Shown: positions 2,463 to 17,744 of the stretch, piece by piece
How positions within the stretch are numbered: the stretch's first letter is position 1
Layout of the letters: each line of letters begins with the position of its first letter
From: a virus
Virus record (IMG/VR): IMGVR_UViG_3300042456_000176
Coordinates: 1 to 25,269 of that record
DNA length: 25,269 nt
Strand: one strand, 5' to 3'
Program-made: the position numbers and the translations under genes
The notes under the pieces: generated by a model
Database searches by the model: none
Told to the model about the DNA's origin: nothing
Seen by the model: the letters and a program-made list of their open reading frames with translations, nothing else

Positions 2463-2922
2463 AGAAGTAGAAACCTACGTGTGGGGCTTTGTGGTCGTCA
2501 TGGTCACATTGATTCTTTGCTTTATTGTTATTGCTTTGCTGTACTCAGTTACCTTTGTGACGCAGCCAATCAAGACCATGGCCCCGATTGATATGGCATA
2601 TACCAAGATGCTGAACGACATTGTTCTGTTGATTGTTGGTGGCATCGGTGGAGTTATCGGTAAGAAGGGTGTAGGAACAGCTTTAAACGCCATCCAAGGA
2701 ACTCCTAGCCCTAGCCCTACCCCTCCCCCAGTAGTTCAAGCGTCTGTAACGCCTACTTCTACATGGACTTCAACAGGGTCAGCACCTAACTGGTTGAACT
2801 TTAAGAATCCTGATCTAGATGAATCATGGACTCCACCGCCTCCTCCAACAACACCGCCTGATTTGTTAGAAGCTGATCACGAGCGTCAACAGTTGGCCAT
2901 GGCCCGAAAAGAGGTGAGCTAA
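2431..2922 (+). CDS. Membrane protein with proline-rich tail (unknown function)
   Basis: A 163-aa protein. The start is set at ATG 2431, with a good SD (AAGAAGG, 2417-2424), rather than the in-frame TTG at 2413. It has a short cytosolic N-terminus, a first long hydrophobic helix (about residues 18-45), a second Gly-rich hydrophobic segment (about 66-83, IVLLIVGGIGGVIGKKGV), then a low-complexity Pro/Ser/Thr tail (GTPSPSPTPPP and WTPPPPPTTPPDLL) and a charged C-terminus. Two membrane segments plus a disordered tail in a lysis cassette could be an accessory holin or a membrane adaptor, but no family is recognised. Its stop overlaps the ATG of the Rz-like gene by 1 nt (TAATG). Confidence 0.78.
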   Translation: MSRQKQRPTIEEVETYVWGFVVVMVTLILCFIVIALLYSVTFVTQPIKTMAPIDMAYTKMLNDIVLLIVGGIGGVIGKKGVGTALNAIQGTPSPSPTPPPVVQASVTPTSTWTSTGSAPNWLNFKNPDLDESWTPPPPPTTPPDLLEADHERQQLAMARKEVS

Positions 2923-3419
2923 TGTTTGGCATACCACTCCCTTGGGTTCTGGTGGTTCTTTGTATAACCTTATTTGGAACTTACAGAGGTGGCTACCATT
3001 TTGGCTGGAGTGATCGTGACAAAGAAATGCAGATTGAAATTGCCAGGAAGAATGAGGAATCTCGTCAGACTGAACAGAAACTTAACGAACAATTAAACGC
3101 TACTGCTGGTAAACTTTTGGAGGTTAACGATGTTGTCAACAAAAAACAAAGTGCTTTGGATGCTGCCATTCGTGCTGGTAGGGTGCGCCTCCCCGCCGCC
3201 AGTTGTGTACAAGCCCCCGCAAGTGCCGCCCCTGCCCCCGCAGATACAAAAGCAACCAGTGAACCTGACAGACCGACTGACACAGCTTCTGATGCCGAGC
3301 AAGCAACCCTCCAAGCCATCGCAGAAATAGTTGCCCAAGGGGATAGGAATACTGCTGCGCTCAATGCGTGCGTGGACTCGTACAACCAGATGAGAGACTT
3401 GCTAAATGGTAACAAGTGA
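2922..3419 (+). CDS. Rz-like inner-membrane spanin (DUF2514-type)
   Basis: A 165-aa type II membrane protein. An N-terminal transmembrane helix (about residues 5-20, PLPWVLVVLCITLFGTYRGG) is followed by a long periplasmic coiled coil (about 30-85, DKEMQIEIARKNEESRQTEQ onward), a disordered Ala/Pro/Thr linker (about 95-130) and a final helix (AALNACVDSYNQMRDLLNG). That is the architecture of Rz-type i-spanins; the ending with C and Y...MRD is typical of DUF2514 phage proteins. Together with an outer-membrane o-spanin it would fuse inner and outer membranes in the last step of lysis. The partner gene is nested in the +1 frame at 3130-3330. The 3' end overlaps the endolysin by 14 nt. Confidence 0.85.
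   Translation: MFGIPLPWVLVVLCITLFGTYRGGYHFGWSDRDKEMQIEIARKNEESRQTEQKLNEQLNATAGKLLEVNDVVNKKQSALDAAIRAGRVRLPAASCVQAPASAAPAPADTKATSEPDRPTDTASDAEQATLQAIAEIVAQGDRNTAALNACVDSYNQMRDLLNGNK
3130..3330 (+). CDS. Rz1-like outer-membrane lipoprotein spanin, nested in Rz
   Basis: A 66-aa ORF wholly inside the Rz-like gene in the +1 frame, with a strong SD (GGAGG, 3119-3123) 6 nt before its ATG. The N-terminus is a lipoprotein signal (WMLPFVLVGCAS, lipobox LVGC, Cys19). The mature peptide is short and extremely Pro-rich (PPPVVYKPPQVPPLPPQIQK), the hallmark of Rz1 o-spanins, and ends in a small helix (LTDRLTQLLM). Lambda Rz1 is likewise nested within Rz. The product would sit on the inner face of the outer membrane and bind the periplasmic end of Rz. 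Lipobox, proline content, SD and context all agree. Confidence 0.88.
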   Translation: MLSTKNKVLWMLPFVLVGCASPPPVVYKPPQVPPLPPQIQKQPVNLTDRLTQLLMPSKQPSKPSQK

Positions 3420-5982: not shown

Positions 5983-7952
5983 TGTCTGATCTACCAAAGC
6001 TTCCGGGTATACCCTCAATTACCTCGGTTAAGGATACAACTATAGCGGCGATTCTCCGCCCTATGAAAGAAAGTCTTGAGATTTTAGGCGGTGCTATATC
6101 GGGTAATCCCTTACCAAACGGAACCGTAGTTACAGGCGGACTTAACCCTGCTATTTCAAATAACTTAACCATTACAAATATTTATGATGGTACAACGGAC
6201 TATACGCCCCCTCCTACGCCTACAGGGTTTAGTATTAGTTCAGGTTTTACAAATATCCTTTTGAGTTGGGATGATCCCAATGCGTCCGGAACGTTTCTTA
6301 ATTATGCGTATACGGAAATTTGGCGTTCTGTTAACAATGTTCTTGGAAACGCAGTACTTCAAGGATTTGCGCCCGGAGCGGTTTTCTCTGACCCCGTTGG
6401 TACTAGTAAAACCTATTATTACTGGATTCGCTTTGTCTCTCAAGCAGACGTTGCTGGGCCCTACAATAGTTCTACCGGCACCATTGGTGGGACCGGTCTT
6501 GTGGGTGGTGTTGACCTTGGCCCCTTGATTGTTGACGCTACTAAACTAGCGGCTGATGCAGTCGAGTCTGGCAAGATTAAAGACGCCGCCATCACGACTA
6601 CCAAGATTGCCAACCTTGCTGTAGGTAACGCTGCTATTGCCAACCTTGCGGTGACCAATGCAAAAATTGCTAACCTTGCTGTAGATGATGCCAAAATTGC
6701 CAACTTGGCGGTTAACAAACTTACTGCTGGTTCTATCAATGTTGGGCAGTACATCCAATCTACTGGGTTTTCCAGTGGTACTAATGGCTGGTACATTGGC
6801 GGAAACGGTGTTGCAGAGTTTGGCGCAGCCGTTATTCGTGGGCAGATCACTGCTAGCCAGATTGATTCCCGTGGTTTGTCAATTAAAGACGCCAATGGTG
6901 TAGTCATTCTTGCTGCAGGAACTGCGCTTAACTACTCATATATAACTCCAGACAGCGGCTGGCTTAATTCCGCGCTTACACCCAGTATCACTGCTGCTCA
7001 AAACACTGCTAACTCTGCCAGTTCAGCTGCCAGCACCGCTCAAAATACTGCTAACTCTGCCAGTTCAGCTGCCAGCACAGCTCAGGGTACTGCTAATTCT
7101 GCCAGTTCAACTGCTAACACGGCTTTATCTACGGCTAATAGTAAGTTATCTAGAGCAGGCGATACAGTCACTGGACGAATTACGTTTGCTGTTGCAGATG
7201 GTATGTTTGCCGGTAGCGATACAAATAATGGTGTGTATTTTGGTAGTACTGGTCTTTTAGGCCGAAAAAATGGAAACACTACTTTTTATATAAATACTGC
7301 TGGTGATGCAGTGTTTGGGGGTCAGTTAGTAGTTGGCGGTAGCCCCGCAATCAGTGGTACTACCATGACTGGCAACGGGGCACTTATTAATCCCACAGGT
7401 ACATTTGCTATTGGTAATAGCGCAACCAATGTTACTTTTAACGGAACCACCTTAAAGCTAAACGGTAACGTCGTTGCTGCTGAGAACATGCTAGGCGGCG
7501 CGACTTTGCCGGGCTATATTCGAGCTTACACAGGTTCCGGAACTGTCACAATAGGGGTTTCTGATTGGACCTATATTTTGATGGATGATTCGCCTATAAA
7601 CAATACTTTCGGGGTGATAGAAGCTGGTGCATCTTTTTCTTATTTTCCGGCTGGTTCCTACTACTATGAATTAACTATACCGGTTACTAGTACCAATAGT
7701 GATGTTAACGGCCTTGTTTGTACCGCTATAGGAGGATTTCCTGATGGAATAAATTTTGGCATTCTTAGTAATTGTGGTGCAAGCTCTATTGGTGATTGGC
7801 AAACAATGCCTATTTATGGCGTAGGCAGGTTTACTTTAGCTACTGCTGGGTACGCAGGTCCCGTGATACAGTCGCTAGACGGATTTCCTACTATTCGAAT
7901 TTTTGGCCGATCAGGATTTTGTACCGTTGTATGGAGAGTTTTCCGAGCATAA
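5982..7952 (+). CDS. Tail fibre / host-recognition protein with FN3-like domain
   Basis: A 656-aa protein. A short N-terminal attachment region is followed by a fibronectin type III-like domain (about residues 71-165: PPTPTGFSISSGFTNILLSW, YAYTEIWRSVNN, TYYYWIRFVSQADVAGPYN). Next comes a shaft with AADAVESGKIKDAAITTTKI and four decapeptide repeats (about 208-246), then LTAGSINVGQYI and GWYIGGNGVAEFGAAVIRGQ, which are standard phrases of phage central-fibre/J-like C-terminal modules. An alanine/serine/asparagine coiled coil with 14-aa repeats (about 339-390) leads to a beta-rich distal part ending TIRIFGRSGFCTVVWRVFRA, probably the receptor-binding tip. No S74 chaperone is attached here. Expected to mediate host adsorption. 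Confidence 0.85.
   Translation: MSDLPKLPGIPSITSVKDTTIAAILRPMKESLEILGGAISGNPLPNGTVVTGGLNPAISNNLTITNIYDGTTDYTPPPTPTGFSISSGFTNILLSWDDPNASGTFLNYAYTEIWRSVNNVLGNAVLQGFAPGAVFSDPVGTSKTYYYWIRFVSQADVAGPYNSSTGTIGGTGLVGGVDLGPLIVDATKLAADAVESGKIKDAAITTTKIANLAVGNAAIANLAVTNAKIANLAVDDAKIANLAVNKLTAGSINVGQYIQSTGFSSGTNGWYIGGNGVAEFGAAVIRGQITASQIDSRGLSIKDANGVVILAAGTALNYSYITPDSGWLNSALTPSITAAQNTANSASSAASTAQNTANSASSAASTAQGTANSASSTANTALSTANSKLSRAGDTVTGRITFAVADGMFAGSDTNNGVYFGSTGLLGRKNGNTTFYINTAGDAVFGGQLVVGGSPAISGTTMTGNGALINPTGTFAIGNSATNVTFNGTTLKLNGNVVAAENMLGGATLPGYIRAYTGSGTVTIGVSDWTYILMDDSPINNTFGVIEAGASFSYFPAGSYYYELTIPVTSTNSDVNGLVCTAIGGFPDGINFGILSNCGASSIGDWQTMPIYGVGRFTLATAGYAGPVIQSLDGFPTIRIFGRSGFCTVVWRVFRA
6603..6719 (+). 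repeat. 30-nt tandem repeats encoding KIANLAVxNA in the tail fibre
   Basis: About four imperfect in-frame copies of a 30-nt unit (6603, 6633, 6663, 6693) encoding KIANLAVGNA, AIANLAVTNA, KIANLAVDDA and KIANLAVNK. The period is ten residues with a hydrophobic i/i+3 pattern. Such repeats build trimeric fibre shafts and can change copy number by recombination. Confidence 0.9.
6996..7142 (+). repeat. 42-nt tandem repeats encoding a heptad coiled coil in the tail fibre
   Basis: Three near-identical 42-nt units (6996-7037, 7038-7079, 7080-7121) plus a partial fourth. Each encodes 14 residues (AQNTANSASSAAST type), that is two heptads. Units 1 and 2 differ at only two bases (AAC/AAT and ACC/ACA), implying recent duplication. 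This is a fibre-length module. Confidence 0.93.
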
Positions 7953-7994
7953 TTTTTAGTCCGATACAAAAATACTACTTTTTTTGCACAAACC

Positions 7995-8007
7995 CTGTAA
8001 GATACAG
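7995..8007 (+). promoter_or_regulatory. Hairpin just upstream of an SD-less start
   Basis: CTGTA (7995-7999), loop AGA, TACAG (8003-8007), ending 4 nt before the ATG at 8012. No GGAG-type SD precedes that ATG, in contrast to most genes here. The 59-nt gap also holds an AT-rich run with seven Ts (7979-7985). It may be a translational control element; no convincing sigma-70 promoter with proper spacing was found. Confidence 0.3.
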
Positions 8008-8011
8008 CCCC

Positions 8012-8464
8012 ATGAGTAACCATACACTTCAGCCGTTAGCCGCATGGATAACTGAGTCGGTAAAAGACCCAGAAGTATTGGAGTTTCTGACGCTGGTTTA
8101 CAACGCTATTGAGACTTGGGATGACATTGTTGACAAAGACAACCGCATCTCTGTGGATGATATCCACAATGTATTTGCTCAGTTATTGATTAAGCTGCCT
8201 GCAAATAGGTTTTATCAGCATAACTACGCAGCTTTAGCTGGCATGTTGGTTGTTATTATTACTTCATGGCATACGTCGAATGCAATTGATGAGACACCTG
8301 AAAGCAAAGCGCACGGCTATACGTTGCGCAAAGAGTTTATTAACTTGGTCGTGCTGTGTGTTGCCATGACAGGCAGTATTGCTGATGCACGCAAAGCGTC
8401 GTTGTTGGGGTGGACATGCTCTGCTGCCAACGATTCTTTTGATGAATTTATAAGGGGCGAATAA
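8012..8464 (+). CDS. Conserved helical phage protein between fibre and ejection genes (unknown function)
   Basis: A 150-aa protein. The frame stays open upstream to 7796, but I choose ATG 8012 because earlier starts lie inside the fibre gene and give an atypical Arg/Tyr/Trp-rich extension; from 8012 the sequence reads as a normal folded protein (MSNHTLQPLAAWITESVKDP). It is all-helical, with acidic patches (YNAIETWDDIVDKDNRISVD) and a hydrophobic helix (YAALAGMLVVIITSWHTSN). I recall unannotated phage proteins of this size at the same place before gp14-like genes; a role in tail or ejection-protein assembly is possible from context only. TAATG overlap with the next gene. Confidence 0.75.
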   Translation: MSNHTLQPLAAWITESVKDPEVLEFLTLVYNAIETWDDIVDKDNRISVDDIHNVFAQLLIKLPANRFYQHNYAALAGMLVVIITSWHTSNAIDETPESKAHGYTLRKEFINLVVLCVAMTGSIADARKASLLGWTCSAANDSFDEFIRGE

Positions 8465-10958: not shown

Positions 10959-13900
10959 ATGGCAACACTTGCACAGCTTCGGGCATATTTTCCCACTGCT
11001 GAGTCTGACTCAGACGCTATCAAAATGGCGTCTAAGCAGTTTGGTATTGACCCAGCTGAAATTGCTAACGAAGTTGGGTTTAAGTTTAATAAGCCCGGGT
11101 TCATGTCGGACATTAAACGTGGAACTGGCCAAGCGATTGGTGCGATTGGTTCAACTGCGCGTGATCTTGGTTTGCCTACTATTGGTAAAGCCGTTGAAGG
11201 TTATGGGGAAGATGTTGCATACCGCAACCCCTCGCAGATCAATACTGTTGGTGAAGCTGTTCGTAGTCCACTGACTACCATTCGTGAATCTGTCGGCGAA
11301 ATTATTCCACAGATTGGAACGTCTCTTGGTGCCGGTATGGCAGGTCGCTTTGTCGGTGGCGCTATTGGTTCTCTTGCAGGCCCTGGCGGTACTGTTGCAG
11401 GTCAAGCCATCGGTGGTGCTGCGGGCACATACCTTGGTAACTTAGCCCAGTCATATGGTGGTATCCGCGCTGAACAACGCGAACAAGGTATTGAGGACAA
11501 AGGCCGTGCAGCTGCTGCTGGTGCAGGTTCTGCTGTATTGGATACAGCGTTTGGTGCTGAGCGTGTTGTAAATAAGTTTCTTACCAAGGGCTCTGACATT
11601 CTTGCTCGTGAAGCCGGTACAAGTTTACTCAAGAATGTTGGTAAACAAACAGCTATTGGTGTTGGAACTGAATCTCTTACCGAGGGTGTCCAAACTGGAA
11701 TAGAGCGTTATGGTGCCTACAAACCGTTAACCGGTGATGAAGCTCTTAATGAATATGGCTTAGCCATGATCAAAGGCGGTATCGGTGGTGGTGTCGTCCG
11801 TGGTGGTTTGGCTTCTATTTCTGGTGAGCGTCCAGTTGAAGGTGGCAACGATATCCAACAAGCCTTTAGCCAACCAAACGTCAGTGGTACACCTACTACA
11901 AATGTAGTTCCGCCTGTAACACCGCCTCCCACACCTCCAGCCGCTACTCTTTCGCCTCCTGCTGTAACAGGTGGGACGACAGACATTGCTCAACAAACAC
12001 AAGCAGCTGCAGCAGAAAACCAACAAGTACAAGAAGCACAACAAAACTTAGTCAAGCGTGAAGACGTCTTTGGTAAAGTTGCCACACAGTACGACCCTGC
12101 CAATCCAACGTCGTTAAACATCTTTGGTCAGAACATTGAAGGCCCACGTGTTGCACCGTTTGGTGATCGATTCGCTGCAGTATTTAATACACTGCCCCCG
12201 CACGTTCAGGAAATTGCCCAAGCAATTACACAAGCAAACAACGCGTTTGCTACACCTGAGAAGCCAAGTCCCTTGGTTAGTTTTAGCTTCAATGCTAACA
12301 ACCCTGTGCCTTCAGCAGATAAAGCTGTTGCAGCCCTTGGTAAAGTGATGACCAAGTTTCAGATTGACCACGTGCAATCAAAAGATGAGGCCGTACAGAT
12401 TCTCAACAAACTCTCGACGACTACCAAAGGTAATCAACTGGAGCAACTCAACGCCATCTACGAAGCTTTGACCGGCCAAGACACAGATGGTTTTACAGCA
12501 GCACAAGCCACTAAGGCAGAAAAAGGAGCTAAAGATGGAAAATTGCAAACAACTACCGGGATGGGAACAGTTCCAATCCAAGGCGGAACAGAGCAAGCAA
12601 ATGCAGGAAATGATGGGAATGTACAACCCAGCGGAGTTCAATCCCTCGGGACAGGAGGTCTCCCTGAAGGATCGCTTGGCCTCCAAGTTGGACAGCAGAC
12701 AGCAGAAGGAATACGGACTGGCACCAGTGGAGTATCCGATGTTGTCGGTGGTAACGCGCCGTCGCAAGTAATTGGAGCACCCAATGAACAAGCCGTCCAA
12801 GCAACAGTTGGTGAGTCCGGACAGCCCAGCGTTCCAGCCATGGTTGAGCCAACTGTGGCAGAAGGCGCAGGCCCGCGAGTCTACAACCCCCAAATCCCTT
12901 ACTACGCCACAGACCTCAGCCACATCAGCTCGACCCGTCGAGTCGAAATCCGAAACAACTTAATTCGCGCAATCCTTGCTCCCAAGCAAGAACGCAAAGG
13001 GGCAATGACCCTTGAGCAACGAATTGAGATGGTGATGATGGCGCTTAGCGCCGGAGATTCCCATGCGGATATTGCCGATCGTTTGAAAGTTCCTGAGTCC
13101 ACAATTCAGAAACAGCTTGAGCGGTTGGGGATTGTCATTAAGCCTCGTCTTACCGAAGCACAACAAGGTGAAGTTTCTTCTATTGAAGAGCGCCTAGGCA
13201 TCCCTGCTGGTACTCGTAATACTACGGCAGATAAGTTTGCTGTATCTAAAGCAATTACTGCAGAGCTTCCTGTTGAGGAAACTGCCAACTTGGTTAGTCG
13301 CCTTAACGAGCTGTATAAATCCGCTGGTAGAGCTTATGGTATGGACCCAGTTGAAGGTGGTAAAGCCTTTGACGACTTGTTACTTGACGCTGGTGAAGCT
13401 TACCGTTCACCCGAGTTTCCCGATGGTATTGGCGCAGGCGAAATTATTTACTTGTATAGCCATGACCGAAATGTTTCTACCAAAGAAACTGCAGCAGACC
13501 AGCAAGCCAAGGAAATGGGTGCAGCTACTGCTGAACAGTTGGAAGAAGCTGGCTTTGGAACTGTCGCTACTGGTGGCGGAAGCCAAGGTGCTGTGGGTAC
13601 ACAGGCAACGTCTCTGTTTAACCAAGCCGAAAAACTGCAGAACGACTTAGCCAAACTAGAAGTTGGTACGCCAGAGTACACAGCTAAAGCAGAGCAGCTT
13701 GCTGCTTTGTGGAATAAGTACGCTAAGAAACAAGCCAGCCTAGAGAAGGCTGAGTCCACTACCGTTGAAGAAGGGGAAGAGAATGCCGTTCAAGAGCCAA
13801 GCGCAGAGGAAGTTCCTGTTCGCGAAGGAGCCGGAGGTGGCAAAAAGGTGGGCAAAGGAAACGCCAAAAGGGGCAAAGCTGCCGGAAAAACTGAAGTCAA

Positions 13901-16900
13901 GCCAGAGCCCAAGCAAGAAGCCAAGTCCGAAGAAATAAAGACACCCGCTGAAGAGTGGGCATACGCAATTCGATTTGCACCGGAGTTACCCCCTTATGAC
14001 GTTCTTAAGAAGGATGAAAAAACTCGCTGGGATGATCTCGTCCGTCGTGGACAAGCTAACCTTGCGGCTGCTGTCAAAATTGTCGGTGAGAAGCCTCAAC
14101 CTGCTGGCGCAACATTGGCCAACGAAAAGCCTGAGACAACGGGCACTGATGGAACTGCTGAAGCGGTAAACAGCAAGAGCGCCAAGTTCATGGAGTTCTC
14201 TGACCTTGAAGATGAAGTCAAAGGTATCAGTGATGTTCGTGAACAGTTTGCGGACATGGATATAGAGAACGCCCTAGACTTTGTGTCTGATTGGCAAGTT
14301 GTTACTGACCGTTCCAAAGACGCATTCCATGGACAACTCAAGACCGAGAATGGCAGGTACATTGGTGTACTGAATCTTGCCAAAATGTCAAACCCTGCAT
14401 ACGCAGCGGAAACAGCTCGCCACGAAATTGCCCACGCAGTTGATATGACCCCACATGGCGGTGTGTATTCACACCAGCTCGAAATGAATGTGGAGATCAA
14501 GAATGGTAAAGTTGTTCCTGTTGGCGAAGTTGCTAAGGAAATGTTTGAGTTGTTCCAGACTAACAAATCATTCACAACCTTCCTTGACTACCCATTCAAC
14601 ATTCAAGTCCACACTGACCTAGACACCAATGGCAAAATTGAGAGCGAACTGTTTGCACAGATTTTCTCTATCTATACAAACCCAAAGTACACAGACTACA
14701 TCGCATCAGTCGCGCCCAAGACTGCTACTTTCTTGGAAGAGGTAATCAATGACATTCGCACAACGACAGCGCTTCAAGTCCAGAAGAGCACAACTGCAGC
14801 AACAAGAGCCATCGACTTCCGTAATCGATATACCGCCCGCCGCAATCAACGGGCGGCTGAAGTTTATGGCGGAAATAGACAAGCAAATGAAGGACCAGTC
14901 AACAGACTCGGCCAAGGCCGAGAGTTCACAGCCGACCAAGTAATTGGCTCACTGCCCAAACCGTTGCAGTCTTCGGCTCGCAGCCAGTGGACTAACATCA
15001 AGACTCTAGCCAAACGTGGCTTGTATGCTTCTGCAATTACAGAAGACGTTATCGGTATGGCTAAGAAGTACATGCCTTCTGCTGCCAAGTACCTGCAAGC
15101 TCAGTATGCCCGTCAAGGCACACGCTTGGAATTTGAAAAGCGTATTGAAGACATTTTGTCCTCGTTCGACAAGTTACCCGCCAACCTCAAAGGTGAAGGT
15201 AAGGGCAGTGTCAACGAATACATCCATGATTCCACTCGCGAGAAGAAGTGGGGCTACTATCCTGGTGAGCAACAAGTAGGCACTAAGTTGTTTGAAGTTG
15301 ACCCAGACTTTAAAGAACGCTTTGATGCATTCCCGCCTGCTGCCCAGCGGTTGATCAAACAAGTATTTCAGCATGGCTACGAAGCCCTGAGACTGAAGCA
15401 GATGGCTGCTGAAAACGCAGTGAACCGCGAGTTTGACTCACGTATTAAAGCTGCTGGTAACGATGCAGACTTACTGCAAAGCTTGAACAAAGAAAAGCGT
15501 CAGATGCTCAAGCGTATTACCAGCTTGCGTAACGTGAATGTGTCTGACCCGTATGCATACCTTGGTCGCTATGGTGACTATGTCGTGGTTGCCAAGTCCA
15601 AAGAGTTCATTGCTTACGAAGAAGCTGCTACAGGCACGCGGTCTAGCACAAGAGGCGACTCTATCGTTGGCGACCCACAGCAAGCCAAGAACTGGTTGCA
15701 AGACAATGTGTCCAATCCGCTCCACTACGTAGTCCAGTTTGCTGAGACACAAGGTGAGGCTGATGACATTGCTGCTGAACTACAAGCCACTGGTCAGTAT
15801 GATGTACAGCCCGAAGACGCTGGTATTAAAGAAGCAAATGCTTCTTACGCCGGTGGTTCAGATGTTCACATGGCTGTGGCCCGCTTGCGTAACTTGGCCC
15901 AACGCCAGACCGAATCCACGGACGGTAAGCTAGAGAAAGCTATTTCTGATCTGTACTTGATGACTGTAGCGGAAGCCAGTGCACGTCGCTCTGAACTTGA
16001 ACGCAAGAATGTCTCTGGTGCAGATAAGAACATGATGCGCAACTTGGCTACCAGTGGTCGTGCCGATGCACACTTCTTGGCTACGATGGAACACAGTGAC
16101 GAACTCAATGATGCACTAGAAGCCATGCGCAACGAGGCGCGGAACAACCGCAAGGACGCGATGCCTCTGTACAACGAACTGTACACTCGTTACGCGGATA
16201 GCATGGAGTACTCCCAGCCAAGCGTGTTGGCGCAGAACCTTTTGCGTATGTCAACACTGTGGAACTTGTCCACTAGCCCTGCGTACTATCTCCAGCAGGT
16301 GCTTCAGACTTCTGTGTTGTCCTTGCCATACATGGCAGGCCGTCTTGGTTACTTCCGTTCAGCTCGTGCAATCAAGCGTGCTTACGGCGACATGTCTTAC
16401 CTCGTAGCGGGTCTGGATATCAACGACCATATTGACTTTGACAAAGCACATCCTGATGTACGCTTCATGCTTAAAGAACTGGTCCGCATGGGCAAGATTG
16501 ATATTGGTATTGACGCTGATGCCAAAGCCCGTACAGACGAGCAAGGTGCGCTTGGCAAAGTGATGTTCAAGCTGCAAGGTATCAATACACGTATTGAATC
16601 AATCAACCGTGCTACAGCTGCCATCGCGGCTTACCGTGGATACCTTGAGCGATACAAAGGTGCTACTGGCGGTGACGCTATCCGCTTTGCTGCCGACGTG
16701 GTATCCAACACGCATGGTAACTACGATGGATTCAACACACCTCGTATCCTCCAGAGCGGTGGTGCTAAGGTCTTGCTGCAATTCAAACGCTTCCAGATCA
16801 TTCAGCTGTCCATGCTTGCCAAGCTGATCCACACTTCGTTTAAAGGCGCTAGTGCAGAAGAAAGAGCTATTGCTCGTGCATCGTTGAAATACATTACTGC

Positions 16901-17744
16901 GCACATGGCTGTGCTTGGTGGTGCTTTGGGTGTACCGTTTGTGTCTCAAGCTGCAAGCATTTTGTCTAGCGTGTTTGGTGACGAGGATGAGCCCGACGAT
17001 TATGAGTACAAGTTACGACGCATGATAGGTAATGATGCTGTAGCTGATTTGGTGCTTCGTGGCGTACCTGCCGCGCTTGGACTCGAATCTATTGGTAAGC
17101 GTCTGTCTATGGAAAACGTTGCGTCGCCATTTGGTCCATTCGTTGACTTCAACTTAACATCTCGTGCAGATGCGGCTCAGATGATTGTGGGGATGATGGG
17201 CCCAGCAGTCGGTTTGGGACTGAAGTTCGTTGACGCGCTTGGCATGATGGCCAAGGGTAACTACTACAAGGGCTTAGAGTTGGCGTTGCCAAATGGTATT
17301 GGCAATGCGATGAAGGCGTACCGCTTCGCCACTGAAGGCATTACGATGCGCAATGGGGACTTGGTGATGAAGCCGGAAGATATCAGCATGATTGATGCTG
17401 CTTTCCAAGCTGTTGGTCTCCCCACTTCGACCATTACTGACAGGCAATACACTCAGAAAGTGGTTGCGGAATTTGACAAGTTCTATGCATCTCGTGCAGG
17501 CGAAATCAAAGCGATGTATGTGGAAGGCTCTCGACAGAGCGATGCAGCAGCGATGGCTGAGGCTCGTGATGACTGGCAGAAATTGCAGGAGTCGAGAGTT
17601 AAGAACGGATACAAGCGTCAGTCAATGTCTGAGTTGTTCCGTGCACCAGCTGAAGCGCGTAAGCGTGAGCAAAGTGTTGTGGGTGGCGTACAAACCACTA
17701 AATCAAATCGTAAGTTAGTCGAGCAAGTAAGCTCAGGTTCTTAA
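10959..17744 (+). CDS. Giant multidomain virion/ejection protein with HTH, HEIAH metallopeptidase motif and LPD38-like C-terminus
   Basis: 2261 aa, the largest gene here. N-terminus: MATLAQLRAYFPTAESDSDA, then a glycine-zipper region (about residues 119-165, GAGMAGRFVGGAIGSLAG) and a second alanine/glycine helix block (about 185-235). A Pro-rich linker lies near 305-350. A helix-turn-helix lies at about 683-728 (SAGDSHADIADRLKVPESTI). Residues 1075-1290 contain a zinc metallopeptidase motif HEIAHAVD (His1155, Glu1156, His1159) with a candidate third ligand in ESELFAQIF (about 1228-1230). The C-terminal about 930 residues are large helical domains (YIHDSTREKKWGYYPG; LLQFKRFQIIQLSMLAKLIH), the latter resembling LPD38-type polyvalent-protein domains, with a hydrophobic segment near 1978-2005. 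Four +1-frame ORFs lie on its linkers. Its order after two ejection-type genes suggests a gp16-like DNA-ejection role. Confidence 0.85.
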   Translation: MATLAQLRAYFPTAESDSDAIKMASKQFGIDPAEIANEVGFKFNKPGFMSDIKRGTGQAIGAIGSTARDLGLPTIGKAVEGYGEDVAYRNPSQINTVGEAVRSPLTTIRESVGEIIPQIGTSLGAGMAGRFVGGAIGSLAGPGGTVAGQAIGGAAGTYLGNLAQSYGGIRAEQREQGIEDKGRAAAAGAGSAVLDTAFGAERVVNKFLTKGSDILAREAGTSLLKNVGKQTAIGVGTESLTEGVQTGIERYGAYKPLTGDEALNEYGLAMIKGGIGGGVVRGGLASISGERPVEGGNDIQQAFSQPNVSGTPTTNVVPPVTPPPTPPAATLSPPAVTGGTTDIAQQTQAAAAENQQVQEAQQNLVKREDVFGKVATQYDPANPTSLNIFGQNIEGPRVAPFGDRFAAVFNTLPPHVQEIAQAITQANNAFATPEKPSPLVSFSFNANNPVPSADKAVAALGKVMTKFQIDHVQSKDEAVQILNKLSTTTKGNQLEQLNAIYEALTGQDTDGFTAAQATKAEKGAKDGKLQTTTGMGTVPIQGGTEQANAGNDGNVQPSGVQSLGTGGLPEGSLGLQVGQQTAEGIRTGTSGVSDVVGGNAPSQVIGAPNEQAVQATVGESGQPSVPAMVEPTVAEGAGPRVYNPQIPYYATDLSHISSTRRVEIRNNLIRAILAPKQERKGAMTLEQRIEMVMMALSAGDSHADIADRLKVPESTIQKQLERLGIVIKPRLTEAQQGEVSSIEERLGIPAGTRNTTADKFAVSKAITAELPVEETANLVSRLNELYKSAGRAYGMDPVEGGKAFDDLLLDAGEAYRSPEFPDGIGAGEIIYLYSHDRNVSTKETAADQQAKEMGAATAEQLEEAGFGTVATGGGSQGAVGTQATSLFNQAEKLQNDLAKLEVGTPEYTAKAEQLAALWNKYAKKQASLEKAESTTVEEGEENAVQEPSAEEVPVREGAGGGKKVGKGNAKRGKAAGKTEVKPEPKQEAKSEEIKTPAEEWAYAIRFAPELPPYDVLKKDEKTRWDDLVRRGQANLAAAVKIVGEKPQPAGATLANEKPETTGTDGTAEAVNSKSAKFMEFSDLEDEVKGISDVREQFADMDIENALDFVSDWQVVTDRSKDAFHGQLKTENGRYIGVLNLAKMSNPAYAAETARHEIAHAVDMTPHGGVYSHQLEMNVEIKNGKVVPVGEVAKEMFELFQTNKSFTTFLDYPFNIQVHTDLDTNGKIESELFAQIFSIYTNPKYTDYIASVAPKTATFLEEVINDIRTTTALQVQKSTTAATRAIDFRNRYTARRNQRAAEVYGGNRQANEGPVNRLGQGREFTADQVIGSLPKPLQSSARSQWTNIKTLAKRGLYASAITEDVIGMAKKYMPSAAKYLQAQYARQGTRLEFEKRIEDILSSFDKLPANLKGEGKGSVNEYIHDSTREKKWGYYPGEQQVGTKLFEVDPDFKERFDAFPPAAQRLIKQVFQHGYEALRLKQMAAENAVNREFDSRIKAAGNDADLLQSLNKEKRQMLKRITSLRNVNVSDPYAYLGRYGDYVVVAKSKEFIAYEEAATGTRSSTRGDSIVGDPQQAKNWLQDNVSNPLHYVVQFAETQGEADDIAAELQATGQYDVQPEDAGIKEANASYAGGSDVHMAVARLRNLAQRQTESTDGKLEKAISDLYLMTVAEASARRSELERKNVSGADKNMMRNLATSGRADAHFLATMEHSDELNDALEAMRNEARNNRKDAMPLYNELYTRYADSMEYSQPSVLAQNLLRMSTLWNLSTSPAYYLQQVLQTSVLSLPYMAGRLGYFRSARAIKRAYGDMSYLVAGLDINDHIDFDKAHPDVRFMLKELVRMGKIDIGIDADAKARTDEQGALGKVMFKLQGINTRIESINRATAAIAAYRGYLERYKGATGGDAIRFAADVVSNTHGNYDGFNTPRILQSGGAKVLLQFKRFQIIQLSMLAKLIHTSFKGASAEERAIARASLKYITAHMAVLGGALGVPFVSQAASILSSVFGDEDEPDDYEYKLRRMIGNDAVADLVLRGVPAALGLESIGKRLSMENVASPFGPFVDFNLTSRADAAQMIVGMMGPAVGLGLKFVDALGMMAKGNYYKGLELALPNGIGNAMKAYRFATEGITMRNGDLVMKPEDISMIDAAFQAVGLPTSTITDRQYTQKVVAEFDKFYASRAGEIKAMYVEGSRQSDAAAMAEARDDWQKLQESRVKNGYKRQSMSELFRAPAEARKREQSVVGGVQTTKSNRKLVEQVSSGS
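12535..12771 (+). CDS. Nested +1-frame ORF 1 within the giant gene (78 aa, unknown)
   Basis: ATG 12535 is preceded by AAAAGGAG (12521-12528) at 6-nt spacing, an SD as good as any stand-alone gene here. The peptide is well balanced and looks foldable: MENCKQLPGWEQFQSKAEQS, a Met-rich helix (MQEMMGMYNPAEF), an amphipathic helix (EVSLKDRLASKLDSRQQKEY) and GLAPVEYPMLSVVTRRRK. The giant's own frame over the same bases is a featureless Gly/Gln/Thr/Val linker (residues 526-604). Of 19 Gly codons in that main-frame stretch, 10 are GGA, against 2 of 27 at 11101-11465 (hand count), as expected if the other frame is constrained. No family recognised. The frame opens further upstream (12487), but only this ATG has an SD. 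Confidence 0.6.
   Translation: MENCKQLPGWEQFQSKAEQSKQMQEMMGMYNPAEFNPSGQEVSLKDRLASKLDSRQQKEYGLAPVEYPMLSVVTRRRK
12784..12963 (+). CDS. Nested +1-frame ORF 2 within the giant gene (59 aa, unknown)
   Basis: Starts 12 nt after the stop of nested ORF 1, in the same frame, with GGAG (12774-12777) 6 nt before ATG 12784. The peptide has a plausible folded start (MNKPSKQQLVSPDSPAFQPW, then LSQLWQKAQARES) and a disordered Ser/Thr/Pro tail. The overlapped main frame (residues 609-668) is again linker-like at its start, but becomes more structured (YNPQIPYYATDLSHISSTRR) towards the end, so the tail may be under weaker selection. The tandem arrangement with its own SD makes ORFs 1 and 2 look like a small operon inside the giant gene. 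No family recognised. Confidence 0.52.
   Translation: MNKPSKQQLVSPDSPAFQPWLSQLWQKAQARESTTPKSLTTPQTSATSARPVESKSETT
13783..13938 (+). CDS. Nested +1-frame ORF 3: MPFKS-type small phage protein
   Basis: A 51-aa ORF inside the giant gene in its +1 frame. The first 35 residues (MPFKSQAQRKFLFAKEPEVA, then KRWAKETPKGAKLPE) closely resemble a family of tiny phage proteins that I recall as separate genes, with consensus MPFKS..Q.R...A..P.iAK.W...T. and a Lys/Pro end. AAGGGGAAGAG (13770-13780) gives an SD just before ATG 13783. The giant's own frame over these bases (residues 942-993) is a low-complexity Glu/Gly/Lys linker using codons uncommon elsewhere in the gene (GGA, AGG). A random frame giving this sequence is very unlikely. 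The family's function is unknown to me; the cationic, Trp-containing helix suggests nucleic-acid or protein binding. Confidence 0.78.
   Translation: MPFKSQAQRKFLFAKEPEVAKRWAKETPKGAKLPEKLKSSQSPSKKPSPKK
14749..14943 (+). CDS. Nested +1-frame ORF 4 within the giant gene (64 aa, unknown)
   Basis: ATG 14749 follows GGAAGAGG (14735-14742) at 6-nt spacing. The peptide has a basic helix (MTFAQRQRFKSRRAQLQQQE), a hydrophobic/proline turn (STSVIDIPPAAINGRLKFM) and a charged helix with a Ser/Lys tail (AEIDKQMKDQSTDSAKAESS). In the giant's frame the same bases encode the linker (about residues 1264-1328) between the HEIAH domain and the large C-terminal domain. It is in the same +1 frame as nested ORFs 1-3. 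No family recognised; coding status is inferred from SD, composition and the shared pattern. Confidence 0.52.
   Translation: MTFAQRQRFKSRRAQLQQQEPSTSVIDIPPAAINGRLKFMAEIDKQMKDQSTDSAKAESSQPTK

Follow-up and report, generated by a model that had tools for sequence, protein, structure and literature searches.

Small genes under selection in the +1 frame of a giant phage virion gene, one of them from a family that stands alone in other phages

Why would a gene for a giant virion-type protein carry, inside its own reading frame, two consecutive short open frames, each with its own Shine-Dalgarno (SD) site? The question arose from an initial annotation of a viral record of 25,269 bases, analysed here over its full length (the window), and concerns the gene listed first in Table 1. 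Its product matched phrog_10089 (E 8e-54) and the NCBIfam model NF032893 tail-700 (E 4.8e-88; 296 bits, above the cut-off of 100), and the gene is surrounded by internal virion protein, tail fibre and virion structural genes. The likeness to PLxRFG/DarB-like giant virion proteins (NF032893, phrog_10089) lies in the C-terminal residues about 1592-2238. A DNA-level search of cultured phages gave zero matches, and cultured relatives aligned to the C-terminal region of the giant only, mostly from residue about 1370 onwards. Two other traits of the giant protein were noticed: a motif ARHEIAHAVD in its middle, with a zinc-protease-like HExxH (HEIAH), and, directly after the ORF2 linker, a weak helix-turn-helix match (13011-13124, residues about 685-722; PF13384, E 6e-4, below cut-off).

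Table 1. Positions of the giant gene, the frames nested in it and their candidate ribosome-binding sites
Feature	Position	Strand	Remarks
Giant virion-type gene, host frame, 2261 aa	10959..17744	+	C-terminal PLxRFG / DarB-like region
Shine-Dalgarno GGAG of ORF1	12525..12528	+	6 nt ahead of ATG
ORF1, 78 aa, +1 frame	12535..12771	+	core PGWEQ.QSKAEQ...YNPAEFNPS.QEVSLKDRLASKLDS
Shine-Dalgarno GGAG of ORF2	12774..12777	+	6 nt ahead of ATG
ORF2, 59 aa, +1 frame	12784..12963	+	variable; sometimes another small ORF in its place
Shine-Dalgarno-like AAGGGG of ORF3	13771..13776	+	purine-rich SD ahead of ORF3 in this giant family
ORF3, 51 aa, +1 frame, 'MPFKS' family (PHROG 1375), MPFKSQAQRKFLFAKEPEVAKRWAKETPKGAKLPEKLKSSQSPSKKPSPKK	13783..13938	+	occurs on its own in many other phages
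ORF4, probable, about 45 aa, +1 frame	~14032..14169	+	start uncertain

The initial annotation had placed ORF1 and ORF2 in tandem, 12 nt apart, with a GGAG six nt ahead of each ATG, and we confirmed coordinates, gap and both sites (Table 1). The frame of ORF1 opens further upstream, with an extra ATG at 12487 (94 aa); the conserved start is the ATG at 12535. Its SD duplex has a predicted energy of -7.9 kcal/mol, equalled by 1% of random sites in the giant gene. A shift in glycine codons of the giant frame had also been counted by hand, and the counts proved exact: GGA, GGC, GGG and GGT occur 10, 3, 3 and 3 times over ORF1 versus 2, 6, 1 and 18 times at 11101-11465. Nowhere else in the giant gene is GGA as frequent as over ORF1. 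GGA-rich windows lacking any alternative frame had been named as the observation that would speak against dual coding; the sole other GGA-rich window of the gene, ~13779-13850, coincides with a further nested frame, ORF3, and so lends support instead. The GGA excess over ORF1 is best read as a by-product of double coding constraint.

Searching IMG/VR viral contigs with the 78-aa product yielded 20 relatives of ORF1, and a profile search brought the number to 33, at 48-100% identity (these relatives are metagenomic contigs, and E-values in the locus searches are relative to the candidate sets). In every relative checked, ORF1 was +1 to a giant ORF without interruptions, of 2000-3100 aa where the contig was long enough. 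AAAGGAG-N6-ATG was kept in most of them, as were the ATG and the stop. The +1 product outdid the giant frame in identity over giant residues 521-680, with, for example, 81% vs 57% in relative L034 and 88% vs 61% in L022. A search of 84,980 prokaryote genomes gave no relative, and no stand-alone copy turned up in viral or genome contigs. A weak upstream match was considered as a stand-alone ORF1 and rejected; lying ~8 kb upstream in relatives, it is an Rz1-like lipoprotein gene.

Substitution patterns among the relatives carried the mark of a second coding frame. In the giant frame over ORF1, 25 synonymous differences were observed vs 270 expected (0.09); the ratio was 0.51 over ORF2 and about 1 in the flanks and downstream. 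Substitutions were then counted on trees by giant codon position (stable on three trees, which recombination among giants could distort). At positions 1/2/3, the normal part of the gene gave 1172/731/2685 events and the stretch directly upstream of ORF1 gave 176/123/464, as compared with 146/96/59 in ORF1 (p about 1e-38), an order of counts expected when +1 is the coding frame. The corresponding figures were 139/102/153 for ORF2 (p 1e-13), 104/45/50 for ORF3 (p 5e-21) and 70/46/69 for ORF4 (p 7e-8; synonymous ratio 0.20-0.37), with a normal pattern at 13940-14030, between ORF3 and ORF4 (p 0.55). Synonymous suppression in the giant gene was limited to ORF1-ORF4, save for a dip at 17334-17409; we rejected the latter as a fifth nested gene, the codon-position pattern there being normal and devoid of a frame signature. 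The other tested genes of the window showed no +1 pattern; the Rz/Rz1 region, chosen as a positive control for the rate comparison, had too few comparable pairs to inform. As a separate observation, synonymous change was lowered at 7967-8041, near the start of gene 7796-8464 (0.31, 9 pairs only), possibly a start-site or overlap effect.

The giant frame is itself maintained. When the codons of ORF1 were redrawn at random, only 0-1.5% of the draws left the giant frame open in 21 of 22 relatives, indicating that selection keeps it open too. Features by which overlapping genes are recognized were present at the sequence level: both frames are open in all ORF1 relatives checked, synonymous constraint is confined to the overlap, and ORF1 and ORF3 have a conserved ATG and SD of their own. 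The initial proposal of dual coding was borne out by the conservation of ORF1 in 33 relatives, the synonymous rate, the +1 rhythm and the giant frame held open. Collectively, these comparisons show that protein-coding selection acts in +1 on ORF1, ORF2 and ORF3, with the giant frame kept open through them, and the same probably holds for ORF4.

As to what ORF1 and ORF2 encode, Pfam, NCBIfam and PHROG searches returned nothing significant for either. The impression that the ORF1 product looks folded did not survive structure prediction, AlphaFold giving short helices only (pLDDT 64, pTM 0.27). PDB searches by sequence gave no relative of ORF1 or ORF3. An assignment of ORF1/ORF2 as an Rz/Rz1 spanin pair would call for a lipobox or transmembrane helix in the nested product; no signal peptide or lipobox was visible by eye in ORF1-ORF3. 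ORF2 begins 12 nt or 0 nt after ORF1 in many relatives. In some, its place is taken by a different small ORF that is built alike, with a Pro/Lys-rich start followed by a short helix-like stretch (by eye). Judged by its sequence, ORF2 is a real gene, though variable, and ORF1-ORF2 look like a coupled pair.

This pair, real as it is, turned out not to be the whole set. The other strong synonymous dips of the giant gene fell at 13.8-14.17 kb, in a second linker that holds ORF3 and probably ORF4. ORF3 was nested in the +1 frame in 23 of the giants examined, and each of these has a run of purines where an SD would lie. AlphaFold predicted helices at residues 6-15 and 17-26 and a flexible basic tail (pLDDT 73), and comparison by fold against the PDB gave no relative. 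One giant family carries two distinct ORF3 types, MPFKSQAQRKFLFA and MPFKSKAQMREMFA (L026:13089 vs L031:12942 and relatives), which lie apart on the tree; this suggests exchange of the nested gene by recombination. ORF4 is missing in the L014/L016/L018 group. The giants L022, L025 and L028 have large inserted domains in the second linker, right after the ORF4 position; by eye, one is ParB-like (EGNHRLQAARELG) and one L,D-transpeptidase-like (SFGCIN motif), and both are missing from the window.

ORF3 links the locus to a family known from elsewhere. The PHROG 1375 profile matched ORF3 of the window at E 6.7e-4 and that of a relative at E 1.5e-4. This family comprises the 'MPFKS' small proteins of unknown function, and ORF3 has the same start, length, two predicted helices and basic tail. 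The other members, however, are encoded separately, often next to genes for head and portal, whereas ORF3 is nested in +1 in a giant. Viral relatives of ORF3 numbered at least 362 by profile search, and hundreds by tblastn. Among the best 80 of these at least 362 loci, about 50 were stand-alone and 27 nested, nearly all in the +1 frame of ORFs >1300 aa, a few of the 27 being ambiguous (short or GC-rich ORFs; L091, L093 and L131 have shorter or ambiguous ORFs). The giants that host nested copies include several that resemble one another little or not at all. Several nested hosts had little or no similarity to the window giant (L133/L140, L135/L137/L138, L134, L139, L136, L132); the L133 giant matched phrog_32588, and L132 has only the PLxRFG region in common with the window giant. 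Exactly one MPFKS copy, the nested one, was present in 18 of 21 longer contigs. SD-like sites before MPFKS were weak in AT-rich giants.

Over the MPFKS start, the giant frame reads ATG-CCN-TTC-AAR from one base further upstream, so that its linker always begins with (N/D)A(V/I)Q or a close variant. The codon for Phe3 was TTC in 38 of 38 embedded copies, as compared with 28 TTC and 18 TTT in stand-alone ones, since with TTT the giant frame would contain TAA and stop. Stand-alone copies adjoin genes for the portal (L059, L073, L129), the terminase large subunit (L094) and a head-tail adaptor (L068); others lie in the capsid region of S-CBS2 and C75C1, near the head-to-tail connector in 023Pt_psg01 and beside the holin gene in FlowerPower. 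In L059, the portal gene stops one base ahead of the start codon of MPFKS, at whose stop codon the next large gene begins. Both neighbours are in the frame used by giants, three stop codons away from a read-through fusion. As the flanks are not homologous, this layout is an illustration and not an intermediate of the window giant; comparison of the genes next to stand-alone MPFKS copies with the flanks of the giants showed no homology.

Our reading, which we hold to be very probable, is that the giant virion gene harbours an array of independent small +1 genes in two low-complexity linkers, made by internal initiation for virion morphogenesis. For ORF3, the polarity of the overlap is likely reversed: the giant linker would be the younger reading, which arose when a giant ORF extended across a small gene that was already there, in its -1 frame. 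MPFKS would be older than the overlapping linker because stand-alone copies are widely distributed.

A different history is that ORF1-ORF4 were born de novo over a pre-existing giant linker, the classical polarity of overprinting. ORF1 is devoid of stand-alone relatives, low-complexity linkers are permissive for new frames, and codon usage in ORF3 pointed away from the ORF frame as the older one. Yet, stand-alone relatives of ORF3 are widespread in unrelated phages, and on a weak 51-column tree the nested copies were scattered among stand-alone ones, with 7 changes needed, although a single origin was compatible. We consider this history less likely than not.

Programmed frameshifting from the giant would yield truncated giant isoforms with short +1 tails. 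The +1 relation on the same strand would fit such a mechanism, as would ORF4, which has no clear SD and opens with nearly invariant DNA. However, ATG and SD are conserved for ORF1 and ORF3, which with starts of their own would need no slippery site, stand-alone members of the ORF3 family start at the same ATG, and the +1 signal of ORF3 begins at this ATG and not upstream, making frameshifting improbable. Still less probable is that the conservation reflects a DNA or RNA element (a recombination site between giant modules, a promoter or an RNA structure) in which +1 openness is incidental. Such a view draws on the position of the linkers between modules, at points where the inserted domains differ from relative to relative, and on 14049-14079, which is nearly invariant as DNA. 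It is already contradicted for ORF1 and ORF3: changes follow the +1 codon rhythm, ORF1 is recognizable at 48% amino-acid identity, SD, ATG and stop are kept, and ORF3 matches a family known as a separate gene; nor were covarying pairs found when RNA structure was sought at the ORF4 stretch. Finally, chance open frames due to the skewed composition of a Gly/Gln/Lys-rich linker have a negligible probability and are already refuted for ORF1 and ORF3, for although openness alone is weak evidence, the +1 frame being open by chance in 4-55% of draws per sequence when codons were redrawn with the giant protein fixed, the +1 protein is more conserved than the giant frame, is present in 33 of 33 relatives and stands out in all rate tests.

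Under the reading of an array of nested genes, the first linker would hold ORF1-ORF2 and the second ORF3-ORF4, and translation of the small frames would begin within the giant's mRNA, at the GGAG and AAGGGG sites that are conserved, with ORF2 translation presumably coupled to that of ORF1. One mRNA would thereby give the giant together with several small basic proteins. That these products might serve virion morphogenesis, a less secure step, is suggested by the neighbours of stand-alone MPFKS genes and by the structural nature of the host gene.

Same-strand nesting has a precedent in phages, Rz1 inside Rz, a small gene in the +1 frame with its own start site and a functional product. The window resembles it in that a small gene lies wholly within another, in +1 and with its own start site, and differs in having three to four small genes in one giant, in two tandem groups, one of them from a family that is stand-alone elsewhere. 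The window also contains a likely Rz1-like lipoprotein frame of its own (3121-3330, +1 in the Rz-like gene 2922-3419), whose relatives in L026 and L035 have a signal peptide and a lipobox-like sequence. In virus overprinting, as reviewed in two articles (PMC8227390, PMC3744397), two proteins are encoded by one stretch in different frames, the usual polarity being a new ORF on an old gene. The two-frame coding is the same here, but the small family of ORF3 looks older than the giant's linker. A nested-gene array like that of the window giant was not found described for PLxRFG/DarB-like giants: in titles and abstracts of open-access papers, neither nested genes in PLxRFG giants nor a nested MPFKS family were found described. 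Overlapping genes as a kind are known; what is new is the array, the switch of one family between stand-alone and nested states, and the likely reversed polarity.

These observations bear on how such genes are recorded. Standard annotation keeps the longest frame, so that nested genes are missed; the distribution of the MPFKS family, hidden inside giants of environmental phages, is thus underestimated. The direction of overprinting can here be argued from homology instead of codon usage, and older small genes seem to be no obstacle to the frame of the giant, which can run across them. Whether this is a general habit, giant virion genes repeatedly growing by reading through, and so taking in, neighbouring small morphogenesis genes in another frame without silencing them, and MPFKS switching between stand-alone and nested states across unrelated giants, is a conjecture on which we are almost evenly divided, leaning slightly against. 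If true, it would suggest one route by which very large virion proteins acquire linkers, namely read-through of genes already present.
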